This document shows positions 19,176 through 42,642 of a stretch of 64,000 bases of DNA, one piece after another; position 1 is the stretch's first letter, and every line of letters begins with the position of its first letter. A model generated the notes under the pieces. It made no database searches. It worked only from the letters and a program-made list of their open reading frames with translations, and was not told the DNA's origin. The DNA is from Hyphococcus luteus. Its GTDB lineage: Bacteria; Pseudomonadota; Alphaproteobacteria; Caulobacterales; Parvularculaceae. The DNA is taken from the NCBI RefSeq assembly GCF_002943565.1, contig NZ_PJCH01000001.1, positions 372,001 to 436,000 on the forward strand, given 5' to 3'. The translations under genes were made by a program, and so were the position numbers.

Positions 19176-19613
19176 TTATCTTGCGAGATATTCGATTCGC
19201 GGTCGTTCGGGGGACTGGCCAATGTCGATTGGATCATCATTGCCAACCTCAAACAGAATGTAGTCGTAATCAATCGACTGGGAATCGTACCCGTAAGTGA
19301 CGAGAAAAAGGTCAGCCGTTTTTCGAAAGAGATATTCAAATCGAACCTTGGCGCCGATGTGAATCGGTGATTCGTACCTGTAGGTCTTTCCCTCGGTCCT
19401 CAGGAATATCACCTCTGAATCATTTACATAGCAGAGCTGGGCCTCTACTGGGCCGATATCGCGCCCCTCACCGGCAACTATCATCTGCTCATCTTCGACA
19501 CAGTTGTCGGGCGGAATCTCATCCGGGATAAGCTGTCCGCCCGCGGCGGATTGTGCGCACCCGTAAAAAGAAAATACGCAACAAATTGCCAGCCTCGTAA
19601 GTACGGTTCGCAT
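19176..19613 (-). CDS. Small lipoprotein, probable immunity protein for the RHS-M23 toxin
   Basis: A 145-residue protein. Its N-terminus [19 protein letters not shown] is a basic and hydrophobic signal ending in a lipobox-like cysteine, so it should be anchored facing the periplasm. The rest is acidic with predicted beta strands and no family I recognise. Its ATG overlaps the stop of the RHS gene in an ATGA arrangement, so the two are translated together. In polymorphic toxin loci the small gene directly after the toxin is usually its immunity gene. A peptidoglycan-cutting toxin needs a periplasmic inhibitor, which fits the lipoprotein signal. Function is inferred from position and localisation only. 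Confidence 0.65.
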   Translation of the reverse strand: MRTVLTRLAICCVFSFYGCAQSAAGGQLIPDEIPPDNCVEDEQMIVAGEGRDIGPVEAQLCYVNDSEVIFLRTEGKTYRYESPIHIGAKVRFEYLFRKTADLFLVTYGYDSQSIDYDYILFEVGNDDPIDIGQSPERPRIEYLAR

Positions 19614-22600
19614 CAGTCGTCCTCATCCTCTCCGCGTCTTGTTCCGTCGCGCAACCTTGTTTGTGGATCCACTCGAGGCCCATTCGGGCCTTCCAGGGTC
19701 TCAAAATGTAGATGAGTGTCGCCTTTTGAAGGCGTATTCCCCGTGCGGCCCACTGTGCCTATTTGATCGCCCGCTTTTACCTTTGTGCGGTTCTCGACGG
19801 TGCGATCTTTAAGATGATAATAACGAGTAACCGAACCATCAGGATGGTATATTTCAAGGGCCGTTCCGGCATTGTCATCGTCGACGTAAACGGCTGTACC
19901 GTCTCCTGCTGCGACAACCCGATCACCTTCTTCGGCCACAAGATCGTTGGCCCCGTGTTCACCGCTGCCTCGACGGTCGTGGAAATCGCCTCCGCCCTCA
20001 CCGGGCTTATCGGCTTCGTTTATTTCGCCCGAACTATCGGGAACGGGGTCAATGCAATCCCCAACTTCACCATCTGGACCCGTCGTATTGACACATAGAC
20101 CAAGCGGATCTGTGAAATTCACCGGATCATTTGCGACATAGGCGTAGAGATTCATCTGATCCTCATAACCGATGGGGTCGGTCTGGAGGAAACGTCCGGT
20201 CTCGGGATCGTAATACCGGGCCTTGTAATAATAAAGCCCGGTTTCGGGGTCGAGCTTCTGGCCGGTAAAACGGAATGGAAAACCGGCGTTCCCTTCCCCG
20301 CCCGAAATGCCGTAAGGCGAGTACGCATAGGTTTCTTCAACGGCGCCCGCCGAATCCGTCACCGCGATTACCGAGCCCAACCGGTTCTGATGCGCCCAGC
20401 GCTGACAGGCGGTGTCGGAAGTTTGCGTGCATTCGCCCGACAGCGTGTAATCGATCATCAGGAAGGGTTCGTCCACAGAGCCCGGCAGGCGAAGATAACG
20501 GCGGAGAACCGTTCCCGAACCGTCGGTCTCCAGAATTTCCTGATCCGCCGCGAATTCCGTGTCTTCTTCGGTCAGGTAGCCGAGCCCGCCCATATAATAG
20601 AACTGCGAAGTCGCGCCTGAATAGGTTTTTTTCGACCTTGCCCCGTCGGCGTAATAGTCATAGTCCGCCGTCGCCCCGCCGCCGCCAAGCCCAGAGGCCC
20701 CGCGCAAGACATTCTCCGCATCATAACTGAACGTGCGGCCATGATGGTCCGCCGTAAGATTTCCGTTGTCGTCATAACCAACGGGAACGCCGTCTACAGT
20801 CTCATATTGGTTGAGGCCGTTCGCCTCGTAAGCATCGACGCCGCTCAGCGCCGGCGTCCACTTGAACGCCGCATCCGAAACCGTCTCGCTCAAAACCTGC
20901 CGCACGCCGTTATAGCTAAAATCGTAAGCCAGTTCCGGCTCATGGGAATTGGGGGATTCATCGCACTGCGCCGGGCGGTCGCCGGCAAAATTCCATTCAT
21001 GGCAAAGAATATCTCCTCGCGGCGAATGGCCGTATGTCGCCGCGAGCGAGAAACTGTTCGGCATATAACGCAGGAATTTGCGCCTCGATAAATCGTCATA
21101 ACCGACATGGGCAAACTCACGGATATATCCTGTATCGGCGGGGTCGTTCACCTGGCGCGCACGCACCACACGGTTCAGCGCGTCATAGGCGTAACGCAAG
21201 ACAAAGCCGTCAGGATATGTCAGATGCGTCAGGTTATTGGCCGCGTCATATTCATATGAAACAGCCATGGCGCCGTCATGCTTCTGCCAGACAATGCGGC
21301 CGACCGCATCGTAATTATAGCTGAGCGTAACGCCGTCATGGGTCGCCGTCAGCCGACGGCCCGCCGCATCATACGTGTAGGAATGGCTGACCGTGCGCCC
21401 GCTCGCGGAATGGGTGGGCGCGCCGGGAACCAGCCGGTCCGTGAGCCGCCCGAGGGCGTCATAGGTATAATCGATTGTCTGGTCCGCACGCGTGCGCTTT
21501 GTATCCATAAAGCTCAGCGCATCGTAAACGACCGCCTCATAATCGCTTGCCGACCATTGTCCGGTCTGGGTTTTCGAAGGAAAATATGTATGCGTGCGGC
21601 GGTCGAGGGCGTCATAGTCGTATTTGGTGACGTTGCCGTTCGCATCCGTCACGGTATCGGTCTCGCCGGTCGGCGTATAGGCGGTCAGTCGATAACATTG
21701 CTGAAGATAGTTATTTTCGGGATCATAGCTCGCCCGCATGGCGGCGCAATCGAGCGTGGATCCGCTGCCGTCATTCGCTCCCGCCCATGCCTTGATCACC
21801 TTTGCAGGCCGGCCCATTTCGTCATAGACCGTGCGCATTTTGCGCCCCGCCCCGTCGACTTCGACAATGGGGCGGTCGGCGGCGTCATAATAAGTGTAAG
21901 AGGTAAAATCGTCCGGATCGGTCACCGAAAACAGCCGTAAGGAAGCGTCATACTCGTAATCCGTCACCGCGGCGCCTTGCGTTTCAAGATCCTTGTTGCC
22001 CCATATGTCATAGGCGATGACCGTATCGGCGCCGATAGGCGCGTCGATCAGGGTCGGATCACCATCTTCGGGATCGCCATAACCCGAGCGCGTTGTCGTC
22101 GTAATATTGCCGAGCGGGTCGGTCATTCGGACCTTGTTTCCGGCGAGATATTCATATGTCGTCGTCGCAAGCGGTGCGACTGTCTGGCGGGTTTCCGTCT
22201 TTCGGCCGAAGGCGTCGTAATCGGTTTCGACGCCCGCGACCGCCGCGCTCGTTCCCGACGGAAAGGATTCAAAAGTCACGCGATTGAACGCGTCATATTC
22301 TTTGCGCACATAGGAAACAGCGCCAGGCAGAGTCGTGTCTTCACGCTTTTGCAGGGTGAGACGCAAGCGTCCGTCGAACGTGTTGGTTATCTCCAAACGG
22401 TCCTGCGTGATCGTTTGAATGAGAACGCCATTCGGATAGGCGTAGGTAATGTTCGTGTCCGCCACGGCGCCGTTGCCCGTAGGCGGCTCAATCTTCGTGA
22501 GCCAGCCAGCGCCGTTATACTCATATTCCGTCACATAGCTGCGCTGATTGGTCTCGCTGGTCACCCAGCCATTATCGTCCACGACGCGGGAAAACGTCGT

Positions 22601-23380
22601 TCCATCCGGGAGCGACACCGACTGTGGAACGCCGCGATGATAATTCGCGAGCGTGGTGACCGCGAGCGTGGTGACATTGCCTACCGCATCCTCATATGTG
22701 TGAAGCCGGCCCTTGGCGTCGCCTGACGAATGATACGTAAACGTCGCTGCACGTACGCCGAATTTATCCAGCCAGAGCGGATGGCCGTTTGAGTCATAGG
22801 CTAGATGTTCGAACTCCTTGCCGTTGCGCGTTAACGTTTCCCGAAGGCCGAGGATCCAGTTCGCCGTGTCATGATGGTAAGTAAGTTCGCTCACGCGGAT
22901 TTGGGAGGAAACATTCGCCTCGCGCTCAATGCGATACGGCTTTCCGTAGTCGAAATTGGCGGACGTGCGGTCATTATTGTAAAATAACCGCGTTTCGTAG
23001 GAATCGCTCCCCCGCAAAATTTCTACAAGCGACTGGTGATAGGGCTTGAGGGAAGTCAGGGCCATTTCCTCGACAAAGGTCGAGCCCGGCGCGCTCTCCG
23101 CGGAATACTCGTAGGTCTTGATCTCGATGGGCGTTGCGTCGGCTGTGTTCTGGAAGGTTTCCTCCACTTCAAGCAGCGCCGCCTCAGCCAAGCCGTTCAC
23201 GAAGGGCTGGCGGTGATAATAGACTTTCTTTGAGCCGTCGGGACGCGTAATGGCGGTCATATTGCGGTCGTTGGCGGGATCTGGCCCGGTGGCGTAGTCG
23301 TAATCCCACGCTTCTGTCGACGCGCCGGGACTAGTCAGCGTCTTCTTCGTCACCGCCATGACGTCGGTCAGGCGGGGCAA
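19613..23380 (-). CDS. RHS/YD-repeat protein with C-terminal M23 peptidase domain, 5' end lost
   Basis: The visible frame has 1255 codons from a TTG. Many YD repeats (for example [28 protein letters not shown]) run from near residue 60 to the RHS core end, [20 protein letters not shown] then TDPIGY and DPLGLC at about 1096. The last 159 residues form a LytM/M23 metallopeptidase domain: HGAND (H1142, D1146), [26 protein letters not shown] and HLHFE (H1223, H1225). M23 enzymes cut peptidoglycan cross-bridges, so this is a probable antibacterial polymorphic toxin. No signal peptide or N-terminal trafficking domain is present: an IS3 element ends 48 bases upstream with a stop in its terminal repeat. 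The gene is 5'-truncated and perhaps silent. Confidence 0.85.
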
Positions 23381-23878: not shown

Positions 23879-24883
23879 TTGGACGGGAACCAATCACGAG
23901 GCATGAAATATCCGGCAACTGAAAAGCTTGAGATCATCCGCCTGGTTGAAGAATCGCGTCTGCCGGTGCGCCGCACGCTGGAAAAGCTCGGCGTATCCAA
24001 GAGCGCCTTCTATCGCTGGTATGATCTCTACGCCCGCTTCGGCGAGCAAGGCCTTGAGGACCGGCGGTCGGGTCCTAGCCGCGTGTGGAACCGCATCCCG
24101 GATGACGTCCGCAAAGACGTTCTCGACATGGCGCTGGATCAGCCGGAGCTGTCGCCCCGGGAACTGGCGGTGACGTTCACGGACGAACGCGCCTACTTCC
24201 TCTCGGAAGCCAGCGTTTACCGGCTTTTGAAGGCCCACGATCTCATCACCAGCCCGGCGTTTAACGTCATCAAGGCGGGTAATGAGTTCAAGGACAAGAC
24301 CACGGCGCCGAACCAGCTCTGGCAGACCGACTTCACTTATTTGAAGGTCATCGGCTGGGGGTGGTTTTATCTGTCGACGATCCATGATGATTACTCGCGC
24401 TACATCATCGCCTGGAAGCTCTGCACGACGATGAAGGCGGACGATGTGAAAGATACGCTGCAGCTGGCGCTCGATGCCTCAGAACTTGAGGCGGCCAACA
24501 TCGAAAACCGGCTGCGTCTGCTCTCTGACAACGGCCCGTCCTATATCGCCGGCGATCTCGCTGAATGGCTGGGGGAGCGAAAGATCGGCCATGTGCGCGG
24601 CGCGCTGAACCATCCGCAGACGCAAGGAAAGATCGAGCGATGGCATCAGACGCTGAAGAACCGCATCCTGCTGGAGAACCACTTTCAGCAGGAAAGCCTC
24701 GAAGCGGCGATCGATGCCTTTGTCGGCTACTACAATCACCGGCGATATCACGAGAGCCTGAAGAACCTCACGCCCGCGGACGTCTACTTCGGACGTGGGC
24801 AGACGATTTTACTGGAGCGAGAAAAAATCAAAAGGAGGACATTTGAAAAACGGCGGTTGCAGCACGCCAGATCCGCTGCTTAA
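23879..24883 (+). CDS. IS3-family transposase OrfB (DDE integrase core)
   Basis: A 334-residue frame from TTG; the first ATG is at 23903. Residues 10-55 form an HTH segment (LPVRRTLEKLGVSKSAFYRW). The rve catalytic core shows the DDE residues in WQTDFTYLKVIGWGWFYLS, LLSDNGPSYIAG and HPQTQGKIERWHQTLKNR. It cuts and joins the IS ends. All catalytic residues are intact, so the element could still be active. It lies in frame with OrfA, separated by one TGA codon. Confidence 0.92.
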   Translation: MDGNQSRGMKYPATEKLEIIRLVEESRLPVRRTLEKLGVSKSAFYRWYDLYARFGEQGLEDRRSGPSRVWNRIPDDVRKDVLDMALDQPELSPRELAVTFTDERAYFLSEASVYRLLKAHDLITSPAFNVIKAGNEFKDKTTAPNQLWQTDFTYLKVIGWGWFYLSTIHDDYSRYIIAWKLCTTMKADDVKDTLQLALDASELEAANIENRLRLLSDNGPSYIAGDLAEWLGERKIGHVRGALNHPQTQGKIERWHQTLKNRILLENHFQQESLEAAIDAFVGYYNHRRYHESLKNLTPADVYFGRGQTILLEREKIKRRTFEKRRLQHARSAA

Positions 24884-28083: not shown

Positions 28084-30720
28084 TCACCAGTTTTTGGTAA
28101 CGCCGATCGAAACAAAGCGCCCCATCGCACTAGCGTTAACCGGGTCAAATTCGATATCACCAGGAATAGACGACCTGACGAAAGGAGGTTCCGAGTCAAA
28201 AAGATTGACGACATTGACCGCAAATCGCGTTCCGCCAAGCAAGCCCACGCCGTCGGCGACATAGGCGGCGCTTATATCAACCGTCGTCCAGCTTTCGACT
28301 TTTTCATCCGCATATCCAAAAGGCCTGCCATTGCGGTAGGAATCCACATAGTTGAAAAATGCTTTAACGTTGACGCCGGAGCGCCGCCAGGAAAGCTGAT
28401 TGCGGAGTCGGAAATCTACAGGCCTCATAAATTTGTTGATATCATCGGTAAACGGCACCGCCGCAACGGGACGCACTCCCTGCTCGATGATAAAGTTCCC
28501 GGCAAAACGCGCTTCGAATTCATCTCCACGACGAGTTTCAAAACGATAGCCGATATCGAAATCGAGCCCCTTACTCCGGGTCTGAGCTATGTTGGTTATC
28601 CGCTCATCGCCGATAACGGTAACCGGCTCTCCCGCCAGGCCAAAAATCGGCCGCAAATCGAAAACAAATACTGGCGCGGCGAGGCCCAAAAAATCGTCCA
28701 CTTGCGCATCGAACGCTGCAGCGCCAACAGCATCGTTTGGACGGCGGTTTATAAAATCGGCTAATATCTCTTCGTTGGACAGGTCTAATTGGATGCCCGC
28801 AATACGGTCTTCAAAATCGATACTGTAGTAGGTCACAGATGCATCAAGACCGGGTATGAATGCAGGGGATAAATCAACTCCCATCGTAAAGTTTGTTGAT
28901 CGCTCCTGCGTCACTTCTGTCGAGCCGAGCAAGCGCAATATGATTGACTGGCCTGGGGTTAAAGGATTTGCCGCCAATGGATCGGGTTCCAAATCAACAA
29001 TCACACTTGAGATAGTATCTGACTCTGCCTGCTCGAGAAGGTTGGGCGCTCGATAGGATTTCCCCCAAGAGCCACGCAATTTAAACCCGTCAACGATAGT
29101 CCAGTCGACGCCAACTTTCGGAACGACCTCGCCGCCGAAATTTTCGTACGAATCGTAGCGCGCGGCGACGCTAACATTAAAGGCTTCAACGAAGGGCATG
29201 TCATTGCGCGAGCTGACCAACGGCATGTAAAATTCGCCAAAGCCCGACCAGATATTTTGTTTATTTTCGATATCCGAAAGCGATATGCCGGAGCTGGTTA
29301 GATCAGACGTGAAATCATCGCGACGCCATTCCGCACCTAGTGCAAGCCGCGTTGAACCGCCGGGCAACGAGAATAGCGGCCCCGAGCCCTCACCACGCAT
29401 AGAGGTCGTTGTCGAATGCGATTGAAATATAGTGGCAGAAGCGAGGGTTTCTGAAAGATTATCACGAGTCGACCAAGAACCCGTCAAACGCGCTGTCCAA
29501 TTCTCGCTCACATCATAATCAATCCCTCCATAAAGGCTGAACTGTTCCGCCTCAAAGGGATTGATAATATCCGGTGTTCCTTGCGCTGGCGTACCGCCGT
29601 CGCGGGTCAGGTAAAGCCCGTTGAAATAGGCGGTAAGATCATCTCCCAGCTCTTGGCGTGCTGTCAGTGTAACATTGTGATCTGTGCCACCCTGCAACCA
29701 ATGCGTTCCGGGAAATAGGATTCCGCGCTCGCGGGTCGCTTCGCGATCGGCGTTGAACACCGGTTTTTGCTTATCGAAAGTATAATTGACAATAGCGTTG
29801 CCGCTTCCCCATCCTGCTCCCAGACTTTGAGATGCGCGATATTGCGTTCCGCCGCCTTGCGTCGATGTTCCCCAAAGCAAGTCAGTTTCCGCTCCCCGCA
29901 CATCGTCACGCAAAATAATATTTACAACGCCACCGACGGCATCGGCGCCATAGATGGCCGACGCGCCGTCAGGCAAGATTTCAATCCGTTCGACCATGGA
30001 GGAAGGGATGGCTGAGACGTCAGCAGCGCCAACTCCTGATAATGAGCCGGCAGATACGCGCCTGCCGTTGATCAAGACAAGCGTATTTTCATCTCCCAAC
30101 CCCCTAAGATCGATAGATCGATCCCCGGTTAGGCCTGAAATTTCGGACGACAGGTTCTGCGGTATTGTTCGCAAGAAGCCTGAGAGCGTCGTTTGGCCGG
30201 AGTTTAAGATGTCTTCCCTTTCGAAGACGGTCACCGGCGAGCCCGCGGGCGCAACCCCTTTGATGCTCGTCCCGGTGACTACAATTATATCAGGCTCTTC
30301 TTGATCTTCATCTTCCTCGTTTGTTTTTCCGCCTACTCCCCGAACATCATCTTCCTGATCCACCTGAGCCACGCGAAAGGTGCGGGCCTCATCGGCGCCG
30401 GCCGATGCGAGGGTTATGGTGTAGGCGCCGTTTGACAGCTCGTTGAACTTGAGCCCGGAATTCACGAGAAGCTTGTTCAGCGCTTCTTCCGGCTCCATTT
30501 CGCCTTTGACCGCCGGGGCCATCTTGCCTTCCACGAGATTTCGCGGCGCAGCGACGGCGAGGCCGGATTGTTCGTTGATAGCCAGGAGCGCTTTAGCGAG
30601 CGGTTGCGCTTCGATATCGAATTGCCGTTCGCCTTCAGCAAATGCCGGTGTTACGGCCACGGACAGCGCGACCATGGATGCCGCGCCAACAAAAATTCCC
30701 TTATATTTAGTTCCTGTCAT
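28084..30720 (-). CDS. TonB-dependent receptor with N-terminal STN signalling domain
   Basis: A protein of about 878 residues from the ATG at 30720, which follows a GAGAGGGG site; the 18-codon upstream extension is rejected. After a signal peptide ending TPAFAEGE, residues about 30-95 form the STN domain (FDIEAQPLAKALLAINEQSG, MEPEEALNKLLVNSGL) that talks to a FecR-type anti-sigma factor. The TonB box DIIVVTG and plug (LRTIPQNLSSEISGLTGDRS, VLINGRRVSAG, IYGADAVGGVVN) follow, then a barrel ending GRFVSIGVTKNW. It sits after the FecR and sigma genes and before an M16 peptidase. It probably both imports and signals the presence of its substrate, perhaps a peptide or protein. Confidence 0.92.
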   Translation of the reverse strand: MTGTKYKGIFVGAASMVALSVAVTPAFAEGERQFDIEAQPLAKALLAINEQSGLAVAAPRNLVEGKMAPAVKGEMEPEEALNKLLVNSGLKFNELSNGAYTITLASAGADEARTFRVAQVDQEDDVRGVGGKTNEEDEDQEEPDIIVVTGTSIKGVAPAGSPVTVFEREDILNSGQTTLSGFLRTIPQNLSSEISGLTGDRSIDLRGLGDENTLVLINGRRVSAGSLSGVGAADVSAIPSSMVERIEILPDGASAIYGADAVGGVVNIILRDDVRGAETDLLWGTSTQGGGTQYRASQSLGAGWGSGNAIVNYTFDKQKPVFNADREATRERGILFPGTHWLQGGTDHNVTLTARQELGDDLTAYFNGLYLTRDGGTPAQGTPDIINPFEAEQFSLYGGIDYDVSENWTARLTGSWSTRDNLSETLASATIFQSHSTTTSMRGEGSGPLFSLPGGSTRLALGAEWRRDDFTSDLTSSGISLSDIENKQNIWSGFGEFYMPLVSSRNDMPFVEAFNVSVAARYDSYENFGGEVVPKVGVDWTIVDGFKLRGSWGKSYRAPNLLEQAESDTISSVIVDLEPDPLAANPLTPGQSIILRLLGSTEVTQERSTNFTMGVDLSPAFIPGLDASVTYYSIDFEDRIAGIQLDLSNEEILADFINRRPNDAVGAAAFDAQVDDFLGLAAPVFVFDLRPIFGLAGEPVTVIGDERITNIAQTRSKGLDFDIGYRFETRRGDEFEARFAGNFIIEQGVRPVAAVPFTDDINKFMRPVDFRLRNQLSWRRSGVNVKAFFNYVDSYRNGRPFGYADEKVESWTTVDISAAYVADGVGLLGGTRFAVNVVNLFDSEPPFVRSSIPGDIEFDPVNASAMGRFVSIGVTKNW

Positions 30721-30883
30721 GATGATCGCCCCTCTCGACGGTTTATTTGCAACTAAGCCGCCGAAGCGCGTCACCCCTGCTCCGCCTTTCCGGCTTCTTA
30801 ACTACGACGGGGAGGCGTCCCTCGCGTTCCAAAAATTTTCATCGAACCGTCAAATTTTCATAACGTAGCGCGAGCCATTTCGA

Positions 30884-31948
30884 TCAGCGGCGACGGATGA
30901 CGATTTCCCGCGAGCCTGTCCGATCGACTTTGACCGGCTGGATCGACTCGACCACATCAAAGAACTGATCGACGTCAGAGGTCTGGAAGGCGAGCGTCGA
31001 GCGCAAATCCCCGACATCGGACGATGCAATTCGGACCGGCTTATCATAGTAGCGGTTCAGATCAGCGACGATTTCGGCGAGGCTCGCATCCTCATAAGCG
31101 AGCCGGCCCTCGCGCCAGGCGCCAGGCGGCGCCTGTTCGACCTGCCGGACTTCAGGCAGCGCAACGCGCCGCGCAGACGAGACGCGCTCGCCGGCGATCA
31201 GCACCTGTTTTCCAATATCGGCGACCTCGCCGCTATCGATCATTCGCTCAATATTGTCCGGCTTCATCACCTCGACGACGCCTTCGAGAACCGACACATG
31301 GACGATCTCGGCGCTGCGCTTGACGTCGAATTTTGTGCCGACGACGCGCACAAGCGTGTCCTGGGCTGCCACGAAAAACGGCCGGCCCGGATCTTTCGTG
31401 ACCTCGAAAAACGCCTCGCCTTCTAGCAGTGTCACGCGCCTTGCGGTCGCTGTGAAATCGGTCGTAACTTCGGATTTCGCGCCAAGCGTAATGACCGTTC
31501 CGTCTTCGAGGGTGACGTCCCGGATTTCGCCAAGCCCGGTCGCGTAGTCGGACGTTGCGACCTGCGCCGACGTCGATGGCGGCGCAAACAACGCCGTATA
31601 GGAAATGACGCTGACAGTTGCGATCACGCCAAGCGCCAATGTGACGGCGAGTGCAGGTTTGCGCAGCCAGTCGGCGATCAGCACGGCGAGCCCGCGCTTT
31701 CGGTCAAGCGCCTCGTCAAGATCGACGCCGGCTTCGAACGCGACATAGTCGAGGTCGCGATAGACCTGCTCGAATTCGCGATAGGCGATTTTGCGAGCGC
31801 GGTCGCCATGGAGCCACACTTCGAAGGCCTCGCGAATCTCACGCGTGACTTCGCCCGAATGCAAAGTTGTGAACCATTCGGCCGCATCGCGCTCCAGCGC
31901 TTCCTCTTTAGAGAGGCCGTCCTCGTTATGGTCGACAGTTTCCGTCAT
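30884..31948 (-). CDS. FecR-family transmembrane sigma regulator
   Basis: A 354-residue protein. The cytoplasmic N-terminal part (AAEWFTTLHSGEVTREIREA, FEVWLHGDRARKIAYREFEQ) matches the FecR/PupR anti-sigma segment. A single membrane helix lies at about residues 97-117 (PALAVTLALGVIATVSVISY). The periplasmic FecR domain follows (ATGLGEIRDVTLEDGTVITL, VTLLEGEAFFEVTKDPGRPF), and the C-terminal STN-like part (AYEDASLAEIVADLNRYYDK) contacts the receptor. It starts 11 bases after the sigma gene, so they form an operon. It passes the receptor signal to the sigma factor across the inner membrane. Confidence 0.92.
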   Translation of the reverse strand: MTETVDHNEDGLSKEEALERDAAEWFTTLHSGEVTREIREAFEVWLHGDRARKIAYREFEQVYRDLDYVAFEAGVDLDEALDRKRGLAVLIADWLRKPALAVTLALGVIATVSVISYTALFAPPSTSAQVATSDYATGLGEIRDVTLEDGTVITLGAKSEVTTDFTATARRVTLLEGEAFFEVTKDPGRPFFVAAQDTLVRVVGTKFDVKRSAEIVHVSVLEGVVEVMKPDNIERMIDSGEVADIGKQVLIAGERVSSARRVALPEVRQVEQAPPGAWREGRLAYEDASLAEIVADLNRYYDKPVRIASSDVGDLRSTLAFQTSDVDQFFDVVESIQPVKVDRTGSREIVIRRR

Positions 31949-31959
31949 GAATTCCTAAT

Positions 31960-32562
31960 TCACTTCCTTCGTCCGTTGCTGAGCGCCAATCGTTTTTGTC
32001 GCTTCAAGGCAACCACGAGCGCCGCTATCCCAGCATTCATGTTCCGGCTAATATCGCCGGCGGACCATCCTGTTTCCTCGCTGATCTCGCGATAGCTTTT
32101 GCCTTCAACACGGCTCATCGCGAGGATCACCTGCTGCTTATGCGGTAATTCCTGCATGGTCGCGATCAATGTCTCAAACCGTTCTTTTGCAACTACGACG
32201 CGCTCGGGCGTAATTTCTTCCAACCGCAGCTCAGCGTCGAGGGCGATTTGCTCGGCGATATAGGCGTCGGCGACCTTGCCGGAGCGCTTGGCGTCGAGCA
32301 CCAGGTTACGTGCCGCGATGAAAATGAAGGAGCGCGGATCCTTGATATCCTGCGGGTTCTCGAGAGCGGCGTATTTAGCAAATGCCGATTGGACAACGTC
32401 TTCTGGTTCGGGCGGTCCGGACCCGAATGATTTCCGGATATTTGCGACAAGGGCGGCGAAATGCGCGCGATAGAGGTCGTCAAGGCGGTTGTCGGCGGTG
32501 ACTGACGAGTCACCTTTCCCGACGGCCGTTTTGTTACGACTTATCGACTTCGACTTTCGCAA
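31960..32562 (-). CDS. ECF sigma-70 factor, FecI-like
   Basis: A 200-residue sigma factor. Region 2 is LDDLYRAHFAALVANIRKSF with PEPEDVVQSAFAKYAAL and DPRSFIFIAARNLVLDAKRS; region 4 is LPHKQQVILAMSRVEGKSYR with EISEETGWSAGDISRNM. The start is uncertain: the only in-frame candidate is TTG at 32562, preceded by AGGAGG at a long 12-base spacing. It directs RNA polymerase to the receptor operon when released by the adjacent FecR. The order sigma, FecR, receptor is the standard cell-surface signalling layout. Confidence 0.88.
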   Translation of the reverse strand: MRKSKSISRNKTAVGKGDSSVTADNRLDDLYRAHFAALVANIRKSFGSGPPEPEDVVQSAFAKYAALENPQDIKDPRSFIFIAARNLVLDAKRSGKVADAYIAEQIALDAELRLEEITPERVVVAKERFETLIATMQELPHKQQVILAMSRVEGKSYREISEETGWSAGDISRNMNAGIAALVVALKRQKRLALSNGRRK

Positions 32563-33599: not shown

Positions 33600-34229
33600 C
33601 TAAAGCTCTATACTTTCGGCGAGCGCCAATGCGTCTTCGACTTCCACGCTTAGATACCGAACGGTGCTGTCGATCTTCGTGTGGCCTAACAACAATTGGA
33701 CAGCCCTCAGATTTCCAGTTTTCCGATAGATTAATGTCGGTTTGGTTCTTCTCATTGAATGAGTCGCATACGATGATCGGGGCAAATCTATCTATCCAAT
33801 CCATCGTTGGACCAGTCTTGCGTACTGCCGTGTGGTCAGATGCTTGTTTCGATCTTTTCTGCTTGGAAACAACCAATCGTGTGAGCGTAGCTTCTTAAAG
33901 TTGCTCCATTCGTCAATGGCTTCACGCGTACACTTTGTCATCTCAAATTGAACTGGATTTCCGGTCTTGCTTTGTAGCATCTTCGCGCGACTTCGAATTT
34001 CGCCACCTATTCGTAAATCTGAAACCCGTATTCGCAAGAGATCGCAGCCCCTTAGCTTGCTATCAATCGCTAAATTGAAGAGCGCAAGATCCCTCTTATT
34101 ATTGCCAAGTTGCAGGCGCACCCGGATTGCCCATGCTTCCTGCGGCTTGAGCGGTGTCTTTTGGCCGACAAGTTTTCCCTTGTTCCAAGGAATATGGTTT
34201 TCCTTTGCTTTGGCAATCGCCATATTCAA
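33600..34229 (-). pseudogene. Tyrosine recombinase/integrase interrupted by one in-frame amber stop
   Basis: Two pieces in the same frame join into a 209-codon integrase without an arm-binding domain. The first (34229-33795) has SKLRGCDLLRIRVSDLRIGG with the first catalytic arginine, and SHDWLFPSRK. The second (33791-33600) has HSMRRTKPTLIYRKTGNLRA and LLGHTKIDSTVRYLSVEVED with His, Arg, His and the tyrosine. A single TAG at 33792-33794, between VQRWIG and IDLPRSSY, separates them. All catalytic residues survive, so the inactivation looks very recent or the stop is read through. No attachment sites were found. Confidence 0.8.
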
Positions 34230-35678: not shown

Positions 35679-36380
35679 TCACCGCGGCTTGGCGGCGTTG
35701 ATCAAGGCGGAATTATATTCCATGGCGAGATTGCGCGCCTGGCTGAGACGCTCGTCGGCCGTACGCGCCGGATCTTGCAGAATCACGGCGAATGCGGCTT
35801 CGGCGGCCATCGTTTCAGCATCATAGGCGCCGCCGGCGACGCCAAGACCGGTCATGACGAACATCGTCACGCTGTCATCCGTTTCGGCGACGAAGCGCTG
35901 CGCGCCGGGGCCGAAATCGGCCGGCTTATAGGGCGCGCTCGGCTGGCCGTAATTCAGATCGGCGAGTGCAAGCAAGTCATCGACCGGCATGGTGGAGTTG
36001 AATGTTTCATAGGGCGTCATGACCGCGACCACGGAGACGTTTCTTCCAAGCCCCTCCGCGTCGCGATAGGAACAGCGCGGATTGGCGCTCCCCTGTCTCC
36101 TATTGCTGGCGTCGGCGACAACCTCTCGGACATTCAACAAGCTCTGTGCGACAGCCTCGGTGATCTGTCTGCAGGGGTTCAGCAAGGCATCGACGTAATA
36201 GGCCGGGCCGGTCGGTTCCGGCGCTGAGGCATCGGTTGTTTCTTCGGATGCTTGTCGCCTATCCGCATCGCGCGCCGCGTTGCCGGTCGCGGATTGCTCG
36301 CCGCCGCAGCCGGCGAGGAATGCAACGCCTGCGAAGAAAGCCAAGGCGTTGCAACAGGCAAGATGCTTGCGATATTTCAT
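35679..36380 (-). CDS. Lipoprotein of unknown function
   Basis: A protein of about 233 residues. From the ATG at 36380 the start reads MKYRKHLACCNALAFFAGVA with a lipobox FLAGC, so this start is preferred to the in-frame ATG at 36416, which would bury the signal. After the cysteine comes an acidic, Ala/Ser/Glu-rich linker to about residue 60, then a globular domain with two cysteines (LLNPCRQITEAVAQSL and NPRCSYRDAEG) that could pair. That layout is common in DUF3558-like lipoproteins, but I cannot assign a family. It follows the LPGDQF-repeat gene closely and is in the same operon. Confidence 0.75.
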   Translation of the reverse strand: MKYRKHLACCNALAFFAGVAFLAGCGGEQSATGNAARDADRRQASEETTDASAPEPTGPAYYVDALLNPCRQITEAVAQSLLNVREVVADASNRRQGSANPRCSYRDAEGLGRNVSVVAVMTPYETFNSTMPVDDLLALADLNYGQPSAPYKPADFGPGAQRFVAETDDSVTMFVMTGLGVAGGAYDAETMAAEAAFAVILQDPARTADERLSQARNLAMEYNSALINAAKPR

Positions 36381-36419
36381 CCCGGATTTGGCCAACTCAT
36401 TGATCATTGCGCCCATCCG

Positions 36420-38576
36420 TTATCTCAGGCCGATTTCGCGGCAAATCAGCTGCAGGCCGACAATTTCCTTTGTGGACATAAGCCCATGTTCATTCCAATG
36501 AACGATCAGCCCTGTCGCCAACGTGTCGGACGGACACAAAACGGCCTTGTGCCATTCCCCGCAATTCGGTCGTGTGTCCGTGTGAACATTGGGCCAATAG
36601 GTTGTGGATCCATCTTTGTTTATCTTGTCGCCGGATATCCGTAGGCCTTTCATGCGTTTATTGCCGTTGAAAGATGAGCAAACTTCGATAGAGCCGATCC
36701 CGAAAAGATCCTGAGGATCCTGGTTCAGGCTAACCTGTTTGTGGCTGTGCTCTGAATAGCTGCCGCACCCCCGCGTCTGACGACCAATGTTGAGTCCTAT
36801 CCGACATGGCCGATTGGTGCGTTCCCACCAGCTGATATGGTTCAGAAATTCGTTGCGGAGATCCATCCTTATCGTATCTTCGCCCTCATAACCCGTGAGG
36901 CCGGAAAACTTCGGCTCCCCCACCGGCCGGGGTTTGCCGGCCGCCTCCAGGCCCTGCTGGTGATCGCGCGCCTCTTCCGCCGCCGCTTCAGCTTCCTCTC
37001 GCTCGCGTGCAGCTTCCTCTGCCGCCTCAGGCGAGTCATATTGCGGGTCCGGCGCGCCAGTCGGCAGGCGGCTCAAATCCGGGTTTTCAATTTCGTCCGG
37101 TATATGACCAACAGAACGCTCGTCCGTCGGCTCAAGTTCCGGCGCCTGGGACGGCGCGCCGATATCCGTATTCTTCATATCGTCCGGAACCTGACCGACG
37201 GACCGCTCCCCCTGCTGCGTCATGCCCGTTGCCCCACTCGATTTCTTGAGGGGCGGGTCATCGGGAAATTGTCGGTCACCCTGCGAAACGCACGCGAACC
37301 GATCAACTGACGTTGATGTCTCAAACTGATCTCCAGGCAGCGCACCGCAGCGGAACTGATCCCCCGGCAGATCCGCCCTATCGAACTGATCGCCCGGAAG
37401 AGCCTTGCATTCGAACTGATCGCCCGGAAGACGCCGACAGGCGAATTGGTCTCCGGGTAATTGCGTATTTTCAAACTGATCGCCGGGCAGCCGACTGCAA
37501 ACGAATTGATCGCCGGGTAGAGCCGCAGGGTCGAATTGATCGCCGGGCAGCAGTGCGGAATCGAACTGATCGCCTGGCAGCTTGGCGAATTCGCGCTCAT
37601 CGACAGTAATTTCCCGACAATTAAACTGATCGCCGGGCAGGAAACGCGGATCGAACTGATCGCCCGGCAACGGCTCCACCGTGCGACCCGGCCTCTTGCC
37701 AAGATTGCCTGACTCTTCTTCCCCTGCATCATTCTTCTCGGTCTCGCCGATAGCTTCGGCGGTTTGCGCGTCGCCGGAACTTGCATCAGGGTCGAGGTCA
37801 GGCGCATTGCGGGGCCGTCCAATTTCCGGATTGGCGATGCCCTCGGGAATTTGCGACACGGTGCGGCGCTGCTTTCCGGCGCCTTGCCGGAGTCCGTCGA
37901 TGAGATCTGGCGATAAGGCGCTAGCGTAAACCCGCACGTCATCAATCGCCAGGTCTCTCGTAGTGCCATAATACGTCTTGAAGTCGTTGCCGCCGACAAA
38001 GACATAGGGCGTCTTGCCGGCTTCGGGGTCGTCCGGATCCAGAAATTTTCGCGGCTCTTTTGTATTAATATTGAGCCCGTCCTTGATTGTCGGCGGGCCG
38101 TCATTTTGATGGAGCCGGGCAATTCCAGCGCCTGTATCAAGCACGGCGGCGACAAAGACCCATTCGCCATTCGGGACTTTGTCGCCAGAATAAGAAACGC
38201 CCGGCCCGCCCGTACGCATGGCGAGCGTGCCGCCATTGACCGCCAAGGAAAGCCCTGCGGTGCTGCCGGAGTGAAAGACAGTGCGCGAACCGCTCGCGCC
38301 GTCTTCCTGTTTCACCCAGGCGGTGACGGTGACTTGCGGATAATCCTGGTGATCGAGGTTGAACGGCAGCGCGAGAACCGCCTCTCTGTCAAAGCTCAGG
38401 GCTTTCCCGACCTTTCCTGGCACCGCGACCGCTCCGCCTTCGCGTGAATAAGGTTTTCCCAGGCCGTCATCAGCGCTTTCCATCGGAAAATGAAGCAGCA
38501 AGTCTTGCGCCTTCGACACCGAAGCCATCACGGCAAATACAGCGATCAGAACGGCGCCAAAGCGAATTTTATTCAT
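36420..38576 (-). CDS. Exported LamG-like protein with eleven LPGDQF repeats
   Basis: A protein of about 718 residues from the ATG at 38576, which follows GGGAGAAT. A signal peptide ends near residue 23 (VSKAQ). Residues about 24-230 are a concanavalin/LamG-like jelly roll (GKALSFDREAVLALPFNL, VTVTAWVKQEDG, LAIDDVRVYASAL). At 303-422 a 10-residue unit starting LPGDQF occurs eleven times in strict register, with degenerate units at 323 and 423. A second unit of about 27 residues (RSVGxxPDxxxNxD...AP) occurs at 238, 458 and 487. An Ala/Glu-rich helix (515-545) leads to a Cys-containing C-terminal domain (about 555-718). I know no family with this layout. It heads or follows closely in a four-gene exported operon. 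Confidence 0.85.
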   Translation of the reverse strand: MNKIRFGAVLIAVFAVMASVSKAQDLLLHFPMESADDGLGKPYSREGGAVAVPGKVGKALSFDREAVLALPFNLDHQDYPQVTVTAWVKQEDGASGSRTVFHSGSTAGLSLAVNGGTLAMRTGGPGVSYSGDKVPNGEWVFVAAVLDTGAGIARLHQNDGPPTIKDGLNINTKEPRKFLDPDDPEAGKTPYVFVGGNDFKTYYGTTRDLAIDDVRVYASALSPDLIDGLRQGAGKQRRTVSQIPEGIANPEIGRPRNAPDLDPDASSGDAQTAEAIGETEKNDAGEEESGNLGKRPGRTVEPLPGDQFDPRFLPGDQFNCREITVDEREFAKLPGDQFDSALLPGDQFDPAALPGDQFVCSRLPGDQFENTQLPGDQFACRRLPGDQFECKALPGDQFDRADLPGDQFRCGALPGDQFETSTSVDRFACVSQGDRQFPDDPPLKKSSGATGMTQQGERSVGQVPDDMKNTDIGAPSQAPELEPTDERSVGHIPDEIENPDLSRLPTGAPDPQYDSPEAAEEAAREREEAEAAAEEARDHQQGLEAAGKPRPVGEPKFSGLTGYEGEDTIRMDLRNEFLNHISWWERTNRPCRIGLNIGRQTRGCGSYSEHSHKQVSLNQDPQDLFGIGSIEVCSSFNGNKRMKGLRISGDKINKDGSTTYWPNVHTDTRPNCGEWHKAVLCPSDTLATGLIVHWNEHGLMSTKEIVGLQLICREIGLR
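37311..37670 (-). repeat. 30-bp tandem repeat encoding LPGDQF units
   Basis: Twelve 30-bp units lie in register, eleven of which encode exactly LPGDQF; the third (ITVDEREFAK) is degenerate. The two residues after the F vary in a patterned way: DP, NC, DS, DP, VC, EN, AC, EC, DR, RC, ET. Cysteine is in the second of these positions in five units. Codons differ between units, so the protein sequence, not just recent DNA duplication, has been conserved. Confidence 0.9.
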
Positions 38577-40110: not shown

Positions 40111-42642
40111 ATGACGGCGCATTCCGCGAACGAAATTGAAGTTCTGATGGACCGGCTCCTTGATCTTGGCGACAGCGACCGGCGCGCCTTGCTTGTAGAA
40201 CTGGAAAACGACGATCCCGCACTCGCTAAGCGCATGAGACGCCTGTTGTCATTTGTAGCGGACGAGGAGACTCTGCCCGGCGAAGTACACCAGTCAGCTC
40301 CGGCGCTGATGACCGCTTTCAGAACCGCCGACCGAAACCAGCTTATCGGCCAGCGACTTGGCGCCTATGAGATAACTCACTTCGTGCGGCGTGGGGGCAT
40401 GGGCGCAGTCTATCGAGGCGAGCGCGCCGATGGCGCCTTTGAGCAGAGTGTTGCGATCAAGATCCTGCCGGCTCGAATGGCGAGTTCCGAACGCCGTGAC
40501 ATGTTCGAACGCGAACGGCGCTATCTCGCAACACTGGAACACCCAAATATTGCTCGCATTATCGACGCAGGAATGGCGCCGGACGGCAGCCTTTATTTCA
40601 TCATGGAGTTTATCGACGGAGAACCATTCGATGTCGCATTGGAAGATGTCAATGACGATGGCAGACTCCGGTTCTTTACAGATCTGTGCAACGCAGTTTC
40701 CTTCTGCCACAGGTCCTTAATAGCTCATGGCGATCTAAAGCCTTCAAATATTTTTATTAGCGACGGACGCCTGCGCCTGCTGGATTTCGGCGTAGGACGC
40801 TTGATCGGACCGTCGGCAGCAACGCCTTCCTCCGCCCCGCGCGGCTATTCACGAAATTACGCAGCGCCTGAACAAATCACGTCGGGCGAACCAAGCGTTG
40901 CGGCCGATATTTACTCGCTTGGTCGTTTGTTTGAACGCCTCATTGTTAAGGAGAAATCCGATACGGAATTGGCGGCAATTGCTGCAAAGGCCTGCGCCCG
41001 CGAGCCAACTGATCGTTATGGGAGCGTTGATGCCCTGAAAGCTGACTTGAGAGCCTATCAATCAAATCATGTGATCTCAGCTTTGCCGCAAACCGCCGGG
41101 TACAGAATGCTGAAGTTTACACGTCGTAATGTGCTGATTATCGCGTCGTTCTCCCTTATCGTTTTAACCTTGGCCGCAGGACTGTTCACCACATCCTGGC
41201 AATATCGAACCGCCACACGACAGGCGGCGCGGGCGGAAGCCGTTGCTGCGTTCGTAAAGAACATGTTTGAAGAGGTCGACCCTGAAGAGGCGGGCGTCAA
41301 GCCAGTGACCTTGCGACAAGTCATGGACGATTCCGCCGATCGTCTCGCCAATGAATTAAGCAGTGCGCCGGGTATCTATAATGAAATAAAGGCTGTAATT
41401 GCGTCCGGGTATTTTGGCGTTGGTGAATACGAACGCGCTCTGCAAATGCGCACTGAAGTCCTGGAATACGCACAAGGCGAATACAAACCTCCGAACATTG
41501 AACTCGTCGGAGCGCAGAATGCAATTGCAGCGGTGTATCGCAGTTATAACAAACTGGACGAAGCGATCACCCTTTGCAGGAATTCTTTGAAACAACTTAA
41601 GGCGCTTAGGTCTTTATACGAGAAAGCTCTGGCTGACACGCATTTTTGTCTGAGCATGAATCTCGCGCAGAAGGGCGGCGCAAAAAACATTGACGAGGCG
41701 TTGCGCCACCGACGGCAAGCTCTCGCCATCTATAGCGACTTGTATGGTGACGCGAGTCCTGAATACGCGAAAAGCCTGGCAAGTTTGGGAATGGTTGTTC
41801 GTGCGGCGGAAGACTACGTGACCGCCGCCCAAAATAGGGAAACCGCGTTAGCAATCGCCGAGCGCCACGGTCTTTTGATGGTGCCCTCATTTATTCGAAC
41901 GCGATGCAACCTTGCACTTGATTATGTTGCGCTTGGGCGGCACGCCGAAGCCATATCTGCGAATAAAAAGTGCCTGCAGCTAAAAAAAGAAAGGCTGGGC
42001 GACGACCACCCTGAGATCGCAACGTCCCTCAACAACATAGCCCGATTGAATCTGCAATTGGGTGAAATCAACCACGCCCTTAATGCCGTGAACGAAGGAC
42101 TTGCGGTCGCGCGCGAGTCTATTCCATCGACAAACTTTACGCGACTTGCTCTTGAGATTAACAAAGCCGCAGCGCTTTGGCAAAGCGGCGAGCCCGAGCT
42201 AGCAAGCATATTGGTAAGCGACGTCGTTGAACGTATGAGCGATCAGCTGGGTCCGGAGCATGGCGCGACAAAACGAGCGAACACGATTAAAGCACGGATC
42301 TTACTGGAGACCGGCGATGTGGAAGAGGCGGCACGTCTGCTTTCCGCGTCGTTAGAAGGGCTAAGTCAGTCCTGGCGCGCCGATGCTCTGCTTTGGCGCG
42401 CCGAAGTAGCTTACAAGCAGGGCGATCATGAAGGTGCGCGCAAGTTCGCTGATGAGGCGGTTCGCATGCGGCGGACATTGCCGATCTTTACACCCTGGCA
42501 AATAGCCGAATCGGAGTTCGTTAGAGCGCGAGCAGCCGACGACTCGGCGGAGGCGATAGCGGCTGCGGAGATTCTAGTTAGCCTGCCGCCAAATCACATC
42601 AGAAGAATCGAGGCGCAAGCCTATCTTGATGGACAGAAATAG
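40111..42642 (+). CDS. Membrane serine/threonine kinase with extracytoplasmic TPR domain
   Basis: An 843-residue protein. The kinase domain spans about 84-320: glycine loop RRGGMGAVYRGE, VAIKIL (K117), catalytic loop HGDLKPSN (D208), DFG (D225) and YAAPEQ. The usual HRD arginine is glycine (H206-G207-D208), so it is a non-RD-like kinase and may not need loop phosphorylation. One membrane helix lies at 340-363 (VLIIASFSLIVLTLAAGLFT). The remaining 470 residues are TPR-like repeats, for example ATSLNNIARLNLQLGEINHA, predicted outside the cytoplasm. The N-terminal 75 residues (helical, DPALAKRMRRLL) are usual for this kinase class. It follows the ECF sigma gene and faces the four exported genes; it probably senses envelope proteins. 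Confidence 0.92.
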   Translation: MTAHSANEIEVLMDRLLDLGDSDRRALLVELENDDPALAKRMRRLLSFVADEETLPGEVHQSAPALMTAFRTADRNQLIGQRLGAYEITHFVRRGGMGAVYRGERADGAFEQSVAIKILPARMASSERRDMFERERRYLATLEHPNIARIIDAGMAPDGSLYFIMEFIDGEPFDVALEDVNDDGRLRFFTDLCNAVSFCHRSLIAHGDLKPSNIFISDGRLRLLDFGVGRLIGPSAATPSSAPRGYSRNYAAPEQITSGEPSVAADIYSLGRLFERLIVKEKSDTELAAIAAKACAREPTDRYGSVDALKADLRAYQSNHVISALPQTAGYRMLKFTRRNVLIIASFSLIVLTLAAGLFTTSWQYRTATRQAARAEAVAAFVKNMFEEVDPEEAGVKPVTLRQVMDDSADRLANELSSAPGIYNEIKAVIASGYFGVGEYERALQMRTEVLEYAQGEYKPPNIELVGAQNAIAAVYRSYNKLDEAITLCRNSLKQLKALRSLYEKALADTHFCLSMNLAQKGGAKNIDEALRHRRQALAIYSDLYGDASPEYAKSLASLGMVVRAAEDYVTAAQNRETALAIAERHGLLMVPSFIRTRCNLALDYVALGRHAEAISANKKCLQLKKERLGDDHPEIATSLNNIARLNLQLGEINHALNAVNEGLAVARESIPSTNFTRLALEINKAAALWQSGEPELASILVSDVVERMSDQLGPEHGATKRANTIKARILLETGDVEEAARLLSASLEGLSQSWRADALLWRAEVAYKQGDHEGARKFADEAVRMRRTLPIFTPWQIAESEFVRARAADDSAEAIAAAEILVSLPPNHIRRIEAQAYLDGQK

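Follow-up and report, generated by a model that had tools for sequence, protein, structure and literature searches.

Both pentapeptide-repeat (Rfr) proteins and knotted solenoids have large hydrophobic residues at every fifth position. The solenoids are known from Brevundimonas and others and are described as having repeated Phe residues with Cys nearby and no disulfides (PMC13123833). Fibrillar adhesins combine a stalk with a binding-type domain (PMC9210967). The VOMI fold is described in PMC9363672 as three repeats of about 53 residues forming a beta-prism, and hen VMO1 as a sugar-binding beta-prism with four disulfides.

Here we describe a protein of Hyphococcus luteus in which the hexamer LPGDQF recurs in steps of ten residues. 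The array shares the five-residue spacing of large hydrophobic residues with the Rfr proteins. However, the position that is usually small in Rfr proteins is an Asp before every F of the array, and there is no family match. The spacing is also shared with the knotted solenoids, in which Cys is described as placed three residues after Phe, as opposed to two residues in the array (PMC13123833). A binding-type domain beside a stalk, here putative, would be in common with the fibrillar adhesins, but no surface anchor was seen by eye in the array protein, and its array is short (130 residues) and placed between two domains (PMC9210967). The C-terminal domain contains six Cys, as compared to the four disulfides described for hen VMO1 (PMC9363672), and the Laminin_G_3/LamG family (PF13385) covers the N-terminal domain only and is uninformative on the array. 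We regard the LPGDQF array as a new sequence form of a known thing, namely a repeat stalk, here putative, beside an adhesive-type domain.

Domain layout and relatives of the protein

The window, i.e. the whole stretch of 64,000 nucleotides that was analysed, carries the gene on its minus strand, with the start at position 38576 and the end of the stop codon at 36420. That this frame is translated is supported by the contrast between synonymous and replacement changes described below, by an ortholog with 57% identity, and by the GGGAG that precedes the ATG. The features of the gene are the following.

36420..38576, minus strand: gene for the 718-residue exported protein with LamG domain, decapeptide array and C-terminal domain (P0001), stop codon included
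38508..38576, minus strand: N-terminus resembling a signal peptide, residues 1-23, judged by eye
37899..38336, minus strand: LamG-type domain, residues 81-226, Pfam PF13385 match of 41.8 bits (cut-off 27.6)
37785..37865, minus strand: first RSVG-type unit, RTVSQIPEG..NPEIG, residues 238-264, preceding the array
37281..37670, minus strand: decapeptide array, residues 303-432, with eleven exact LPGDQF units and slots 323 and 423
37581..37610, minus strand: non-matching slot ITVDEREFAK, residues 323-332, spacing preserved
37266..37310, minus strand: degenerate tail SVDRFACVSQGDRQF, residues 423-437, two decayed units out of register, by eye
37125..37205, minus strand: RSVGQVPDDMKNTDIG unit, residues 458-484, with a counterpart in the ortholog (L017)
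37038..37118, minus strand: RSVGHIPDEIENPDL unit, residues 487-513, with a counterpart in the ortholog (L017)
36942..37037, minus strand: Ala/Glu-rich stretch, residues 514-545, predicted helix (516-545 in the AlphaFold model)
36423..36929, minus strand: C-terminal domain, residues 550-718, six Cys, from profile and Pfam searches; VOMI (PF03762) is weakly matched by some relatives

The order of the domains is therefore a signal-peptide-like start, the LamG domain, a linker that includes the array, an Ala/Glu-rich helix-prone stretch and the C-terminal domain. The original prediction of an exported protein agrees with the signal-peptide-like N-terminus, as judged by eye only, and the LamG-like domain that it proposed was recovered as PF13385 above the curated gathering cut-off. 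An RSVG-type unit had also been said to bracket the array three times; indeed, one copy lies before the array (238) and two lie after it (458 and 487). Shorter echoes of this unit are RTVEP at 298 and RPVGEP at 550. Since the echo at 298 merges directly with the first LPGDQF (RTVEPLPGDQFDPRF beside RTVSQIPEGIANPEIG), the decapeptide may be derived from the core of the RSVG-type unit, a likeness that was judged by eye.

Matches to the array protein with E-values of at most 0.001 were obtained in 8 of 62 genomes of the family and in 10 of 100 genomes of a mixed set of relatives. The eight family matches were in the own genome, G013, G005 (LamG part only), G043, G027 and three genomes with pentapeptide-like frames, to which the mixed set added G074 and G092. 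The sole true ortholog is that of G013, which is the same DNA as the Marinicaulis sp. contig JABDJK010000032.1 (L017); the name Marinicaulis resolves to Hyphococcus, Parvularculaceae, and G013 is classed in the genus of the window. The array of the ortholog consists of LPGDQY, LPGDQY and LPDDRY at residues 250, 260 and 270, again with a ten-residue step and without Cys, and its C-terminal domain keeps the six Cys. Eleven exact units in the window are thus to be set against two exact units and one degenerate unit in the ortholog, and all 11 exact units end in F as compared to Y in all 3 ortholog units.

Further proteins with LamG and C-terminal domains, including a paralog in the own genome (L002) and those of G043 and G027, have linkers without the motif. 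Linker length varies widely among the homologs, and the linkers of other members appeared to be of low complexity by eye. A distant homolog with LamG and C-terminal domains from another family (G378; L033/L070) carries a single LPGDHF right after its signal-peptide-like start. Pfam recognised only LamG in this whole protein, and a search for it in the remaining 104 of the 105 genomes of its family gave no match. The array matches in G050, G058, G008 and G074 were set aside as pentapeptide-like frames, judged by eye, that match by L/F alternation, and the G092 match covered no more than the helical stretch and the first part of the C-terminal domain. A match in a Natrinema pellirubrum plasmid (L036) was rejected as well, since the matched frame reads the opposite strand of an ETVDGNATAN repeat that belongs to an annotated gene; this ten-residue repeat has N-x-T in each unit and belongs to a DUF1616 protein. 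Viral contigs contained neither an array nor a relative of the C-terminal domain.

A scan for the tandem motif in genome contigs of at least 3,000 bases, a set that may leave out records close to the genome of the window, returned L017 only. When 398 genomes sampled from the order were searched with the codon-string pattern LPGD(Q/H)(F/Y), its first residue being L or F, the ten-residue step appeared in only two of them, G000 with 11 hits and G013 with 2. At least one hexamer string was present in 110 of the 398 genomes, mostly one or two in each, and a reversed control pattern gave at most two per genome and strand. Higher numbers were found in G200 and G232, which have five hits apiece, most of them arranged head-to-tail at 18-base intervals, and in G229, G121 and G289, with three scattered hits each. 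By eye, neither the array nor its linker was seen around 30 such places in families f3 and f4, nor at any of the 26 listed places in the window's own family outside G000 and G013; for families f2 and f5, the inspection covered the place in G378 alone. The head-to-tail 18-base repeats, at G200:C1:1117471-1117560 and G232:C1:1106928-1107017, read FPGDHF in one frame.

A five-member profile of the C-terminal domain matched at least 8 of 398 genomes of the order and at least 4 of 385 genomes of the class; it should be noted that these counts include the window's own genome and are lower bounds, no more than eight candidates having been scored in each genome. VOMI (PF03762) was matched by three of the five profile members with 15.5, 25.5 and 14.3 bits (cut-off 25). 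The value of 25.5, just above the cut-off, belongs to L006 and the value of 15.5 to the ortholog, and no VOMI match was obtained for the window's own C-terminal domain or that of L007 in Pfam at E-values up to 10. Of five further copies, scanned alone, two matched VOMI below the threshold, with 18.8 and 12.6 bits, and the other three had no match to it. The VOMI matches pair the last 45-50 or so residues of the homologous domains with one end of the model, about a third of it. A profile search of the PDB with the C-terminal domain gave one chance-level hit (E 0.85). These likenesses offer a lead towards a putative glycan-binding head, and not a membership in VOMI. A tandem pair of C-terminal domains is encoded at L072:6843-8435 (minus strand), where no LamG was seen by eye.

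Register, age and cysteines of the LPGDQF array

Eleven LPGDQF units with a spacing of ten residues between 303 and 413 had been predicted, and the sequence count returned exactly this, with starts at 303, 313, 333, 343, 353, 363, 373, 383, 393, 403 and 413. In 2000 shuffles of the array protein, no hexamer occurred more than twice. Slots 323 and 423 had been proposed to keep the register, which holds for the spacing of slot 323, although its motif is nearly lost and retains only the Asp at position 4 of LPGDQF. It does not hold for unit 423 (SVDRFACVSQ), which is displaced by one residue (F427, Cys429). An extra degenerate unit missing from the earlier list, SQGDRQF at 431-437, was recognised by eye and carries an inserted residue. 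Of the 14 units, 11 are intact. The array, of 130 residues, is located between the LamG domain and the six-Cys C-terminal domain.

The 55 pairs that can be formed from the 11 exact units had a pS of 0.74 and a pN of 0.005 in the hexamer, as compared to a pS of 0.76 and a pN of 0.63 in the spacers, i.e. the four residues between hexamers. As the exact units are invariant by choice, the count was redone with the degenerate slots included and the 431 unit left out for its inserted residue. The hexamer pN then rose to 0.08 (pS 0.70) with slot 323, to 0.13 (pS 0.69) with slots 323 and 423 when the latter was shifted to fit, and to 0.20 (pS 0.75) with both slots in strict register, whereas the spacer pN was still 0.63-0.65. 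The closest pair of exact units is identical at 24 of 30 bases, and no pair is near-identical over the 30 bases. The near-saturated synonymous sites (pS 0.74) rule out a recent product of tandem duplication or slippage. Because pS is near saturation and the hexamer pN is far below the spacer pN, the units of the array are old, with a constrained hexamer and unconstrained spacers.

Of the 12 Cys in the protein, six are in the array region and six in the C-terminal domain, with none in the LamG domain or the remaining linker. Cys is the eighth residue, two after F, in 5 of the 11 exact units (313, 353, 373, 383 and 403), and the sixth array Cys is in degenerate unit 423. The exact units offer 44 free positions, and every one of their five Cys falls at position 8, with a chance of 0.0004 for that position and 0.0017 for any position, figures that assume independent units although the units descend from one another. 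The Cys pattern after F noted earlier for five units is therefore non-random in its placement. The Cys codons are a mixture of TGT and TGC. An acidic residue occupies position 7 in all 6 exact units that lack Cys, as compared to 1 of the 5 with Cys (Fisher p-value of 0.015, the position being chosen post hoc). A regular alternation of units with and without Cys was not significant (p-values of 0.12 over 13 units and 0.07 over the last nine). Because the three units of the ortholog are without Cys, the ancestral unit did not necessarily include this residue. The disulfide-braced rod of the original prediction is a possible structure, and the binding surface suggested with it is another.

AlphaFold modelled the array alone with a pLDDT of 44 and a pTM of 0.35, and the whole protein, with its single usable relative, with a pLDDT of 29; in the latter model only residues 513-539 had a pLDDT above 50. 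The array-only model contains six strands of at least three residues (318-323, 357-362, 377-383, 387-392, 408-412 and 427-431), all with low confidence; every one of the six units that bear Cys has one of these strands, and the other units have none. This coincidence is a hint only of order in the array, and the modelled strands may in part be due to the beta propensity of V, C and similar residues in the Cys-bearing units. In terms of charge and hydropathy the array has a value of -0.05, slightly on the disordered side, with -0.20 and -0.29 for its flanks and 0.11 and 0.03 for the two domains.

The view that the repeat has no name is in line with our searches, as no convincing match to the array was found in Pfam, NCBIfam, PHROGs or PDB sequences. 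Specifically, Pfam at E-values up to 10 returned DUF2703 alone (E 0.32), NCBIfam gave no match, the best PHROGs match was phrog_15350 (function not assigned, E 0.092), and the best PDB sequence match had an E-value of 0.13. The string LPGDQF is absent from the one open-licence library that was searched, which does not equal absence in print. The same library contained nothing on vitelline membrane outer layer together with LamG and bacteria, nothing on a LamG domain together with Parvularcula, and, among work on decapeptide repeats of bacterial surface proteins, nothing about this array.

Possible roles of the array

With a probability of about 0.4, we read the array as an ordered stalk of fixed step which, in an exported protein, keeps two binding-type domains at a distance from each other. 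An ordered stack is favoured because the step is fixed despite diverged spacers, the place of the Cys is fixed, and most units have been retained. The acidic residues at position 7 of the Cys-free units and the low-confidence strands in the Cys-bearing ones point the same way. In such a stack, LPGD would make up a turn, followed by a short strand of QFx(C)x, the units stacking on one another, and the six Cys could pair or pack to give a stiffer stack in the window's lineage only. Judged from domain kinship, the LamG and VOMI-like heads may bind glycans, in which case the length of the stalk would set their separation. On this reading, the stalk would have been expanded within the lineage. Low AlphaFold confidence, the Cys-free three-unit array of the ortholog, the two out-of-register end units, the non-significant alternation of units with and without Cys and the slightly disordered charge-hydropathy value of the array all speak against a stacked stalk, and the lone LPGDHF in G378 would not be explained by a stacking repeat. 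The fuller proposal that LPGDQF-x4 is a new ten-residue stacking repeat, serving a small clade as a stalk module that gained a one-sided row of Cys in the course of its expansion and determines how far apart two lectin-like heads are placed, appears doubtful. If the array is ordered, it would represent a new short repeat module among solenoid or rod-forming repeats, and the three units without Cys and the 14 units with six Cys would be a natural pair for studying stalk growth and the gain of braces.

A kept hexamer with free flanks would also be expected if LPGD(Q/H)(F/Y) were a short motif for docking, repeated along a flexible linker, the copies of which bind one partner site, for example on a processing, anchoring or chaperone protein, with avidity. 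Though on balance unlikely, this main rival of the stalk would account for the single LPGDHF after the signal-peptide-like start of the G378 homolog from another family, for the consistent F here and Y in the ortholog, as if matched to a partner, and for the low-complexity linkers of other members and the failed structure prediction. However, free linkers usually gain or lose residues, and the ten-residue step is constant though the spacers diverged. Redundant copies would moreover be expected to decay, yet 11 of 14 are intact, and the lone LPGDHF is one case, in a protein for which 104 further genomes of its family gave no match. A docking array would point to a partner in the cell envelope of Parvularculaceae. 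Whether the array is a stalk or a docking array, the contrast between kept hexamer and free spacer indicates that the motif matters. The same contrast, seen at near-saturated synonymous sites and with Q and F retained, makes it improbable that the array is a spacer of nearly irrelevant sequence in which repeat expansion has left a pattern, even if the widely varying linker lengths of the homologs and the different copy numbers of the orthologs would suit such a spacer.

The large hydrophobic residues at every five positions (L1 and F6 of each exact decapeptide) could reflect a divergent Rfr beta-helix, with two pentapeptides per decapeptide and four per turn. The two best PDB matches are indeed pentapeptide proteins, if weak ones (E 0.13 and 0.18), and residues 331-421 were paired with pentapeptide-like frames in G050, G058 and G008 at E-values of 2e-4 to 7e-4; L/F alternation alone is, however, able to attract such matches. 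In Rfr pentapeptides, the residue two positions ahead of the central one is small and points inward; in the array, it is Asp in all 11 F-centred pentapeptides and small in 7 of 10 L-centred ones. As no Pfam pentapeptide family was matched at E-values up to 10 and the small residue is not seen before F, we consider an Rfr fold hardly probable. The low-confidence array model (pLDDT 44) shows no quadrilateral beta-helix. Least credible is a display of the Cys as reactive or metal-binding groups at intervals, without a structural role. The recurrence of Cys at position 8 amid variable residues at 7, 9 and 10 would be compatible with it, but the units of the ortholog are without Cys and exported compartments favour disulfides.

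Genomic setting

The following genes surround that of the array protein.

35679..36416, minus strand: lipoprotein-like gene, downstream, with DUF3558 just sub-threshold (33.3 bits, cut-off 34.1); retained beside the ortholog in L068
34464..35630, minus strand: second downstream gene, exported-looking, 388 residues; retained beside the ortholog in L068
38659..39291, minus strand: lipoprotein-like gene, upstream; relatives in L072 and L073
39457..40047, plus strand: ECF sigma factor (PF07638), divergent
40111..42642, plus strand: Ser/Thr protein kinase with TPRs, divergent

The two genes downstream of the ortholog match those of the window, and relatives of the upstream lipoprotein-like gene are accompanied by a C-terminal-domain gene and a LamG gene in L072 and L073. 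The gene of the G043 homolog, too, stands in divergent orientation to genes for an ECF sigma factor and a TPR-containing Ser/Thr kinase. A large frame for an AAA/LuxR-type regulator was seen by eye near LamG or C-terminal-domain relatives in L067, L068, L071 (where the contig includes no more than its C-terminal part), L072 and L073, and none was seen by eye in L070 and L074. The regulators of L067 and L068 were scanned and gave AAA, LuxR and TPR-type matches. The proximity of sigma factor and kinase genes or of AAA/LuxR-type regulators suggests a regulated export of envelope or surface proteins.

Other elements of the window include an integrase-like frame (33792-34229, minus strand; PF00589, phrog_216) directly downstream of the conserved gene pair, the place of which is taken by a different lipoprotein-like gene beside the ortholog in L068. 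Further away are an RHS-repeat protein with a terminal peptidase M23 domain (19613-23380, minus strand; PF05593, PF01551) and, by eye, an IS transposase-like frame with an integrase core (23879-24883, plus strand) and a row of TonB-dependent-receptor-like, FecR-like and sigma-factor-like genes (28084-32562, minus strand). Lastly, L073:4878-7868 (plus strand) encodes a LamG domain and, after a linker, a PF00144 domain, so that the LamG part recurs in combination with C-terminal domains of other kinds.
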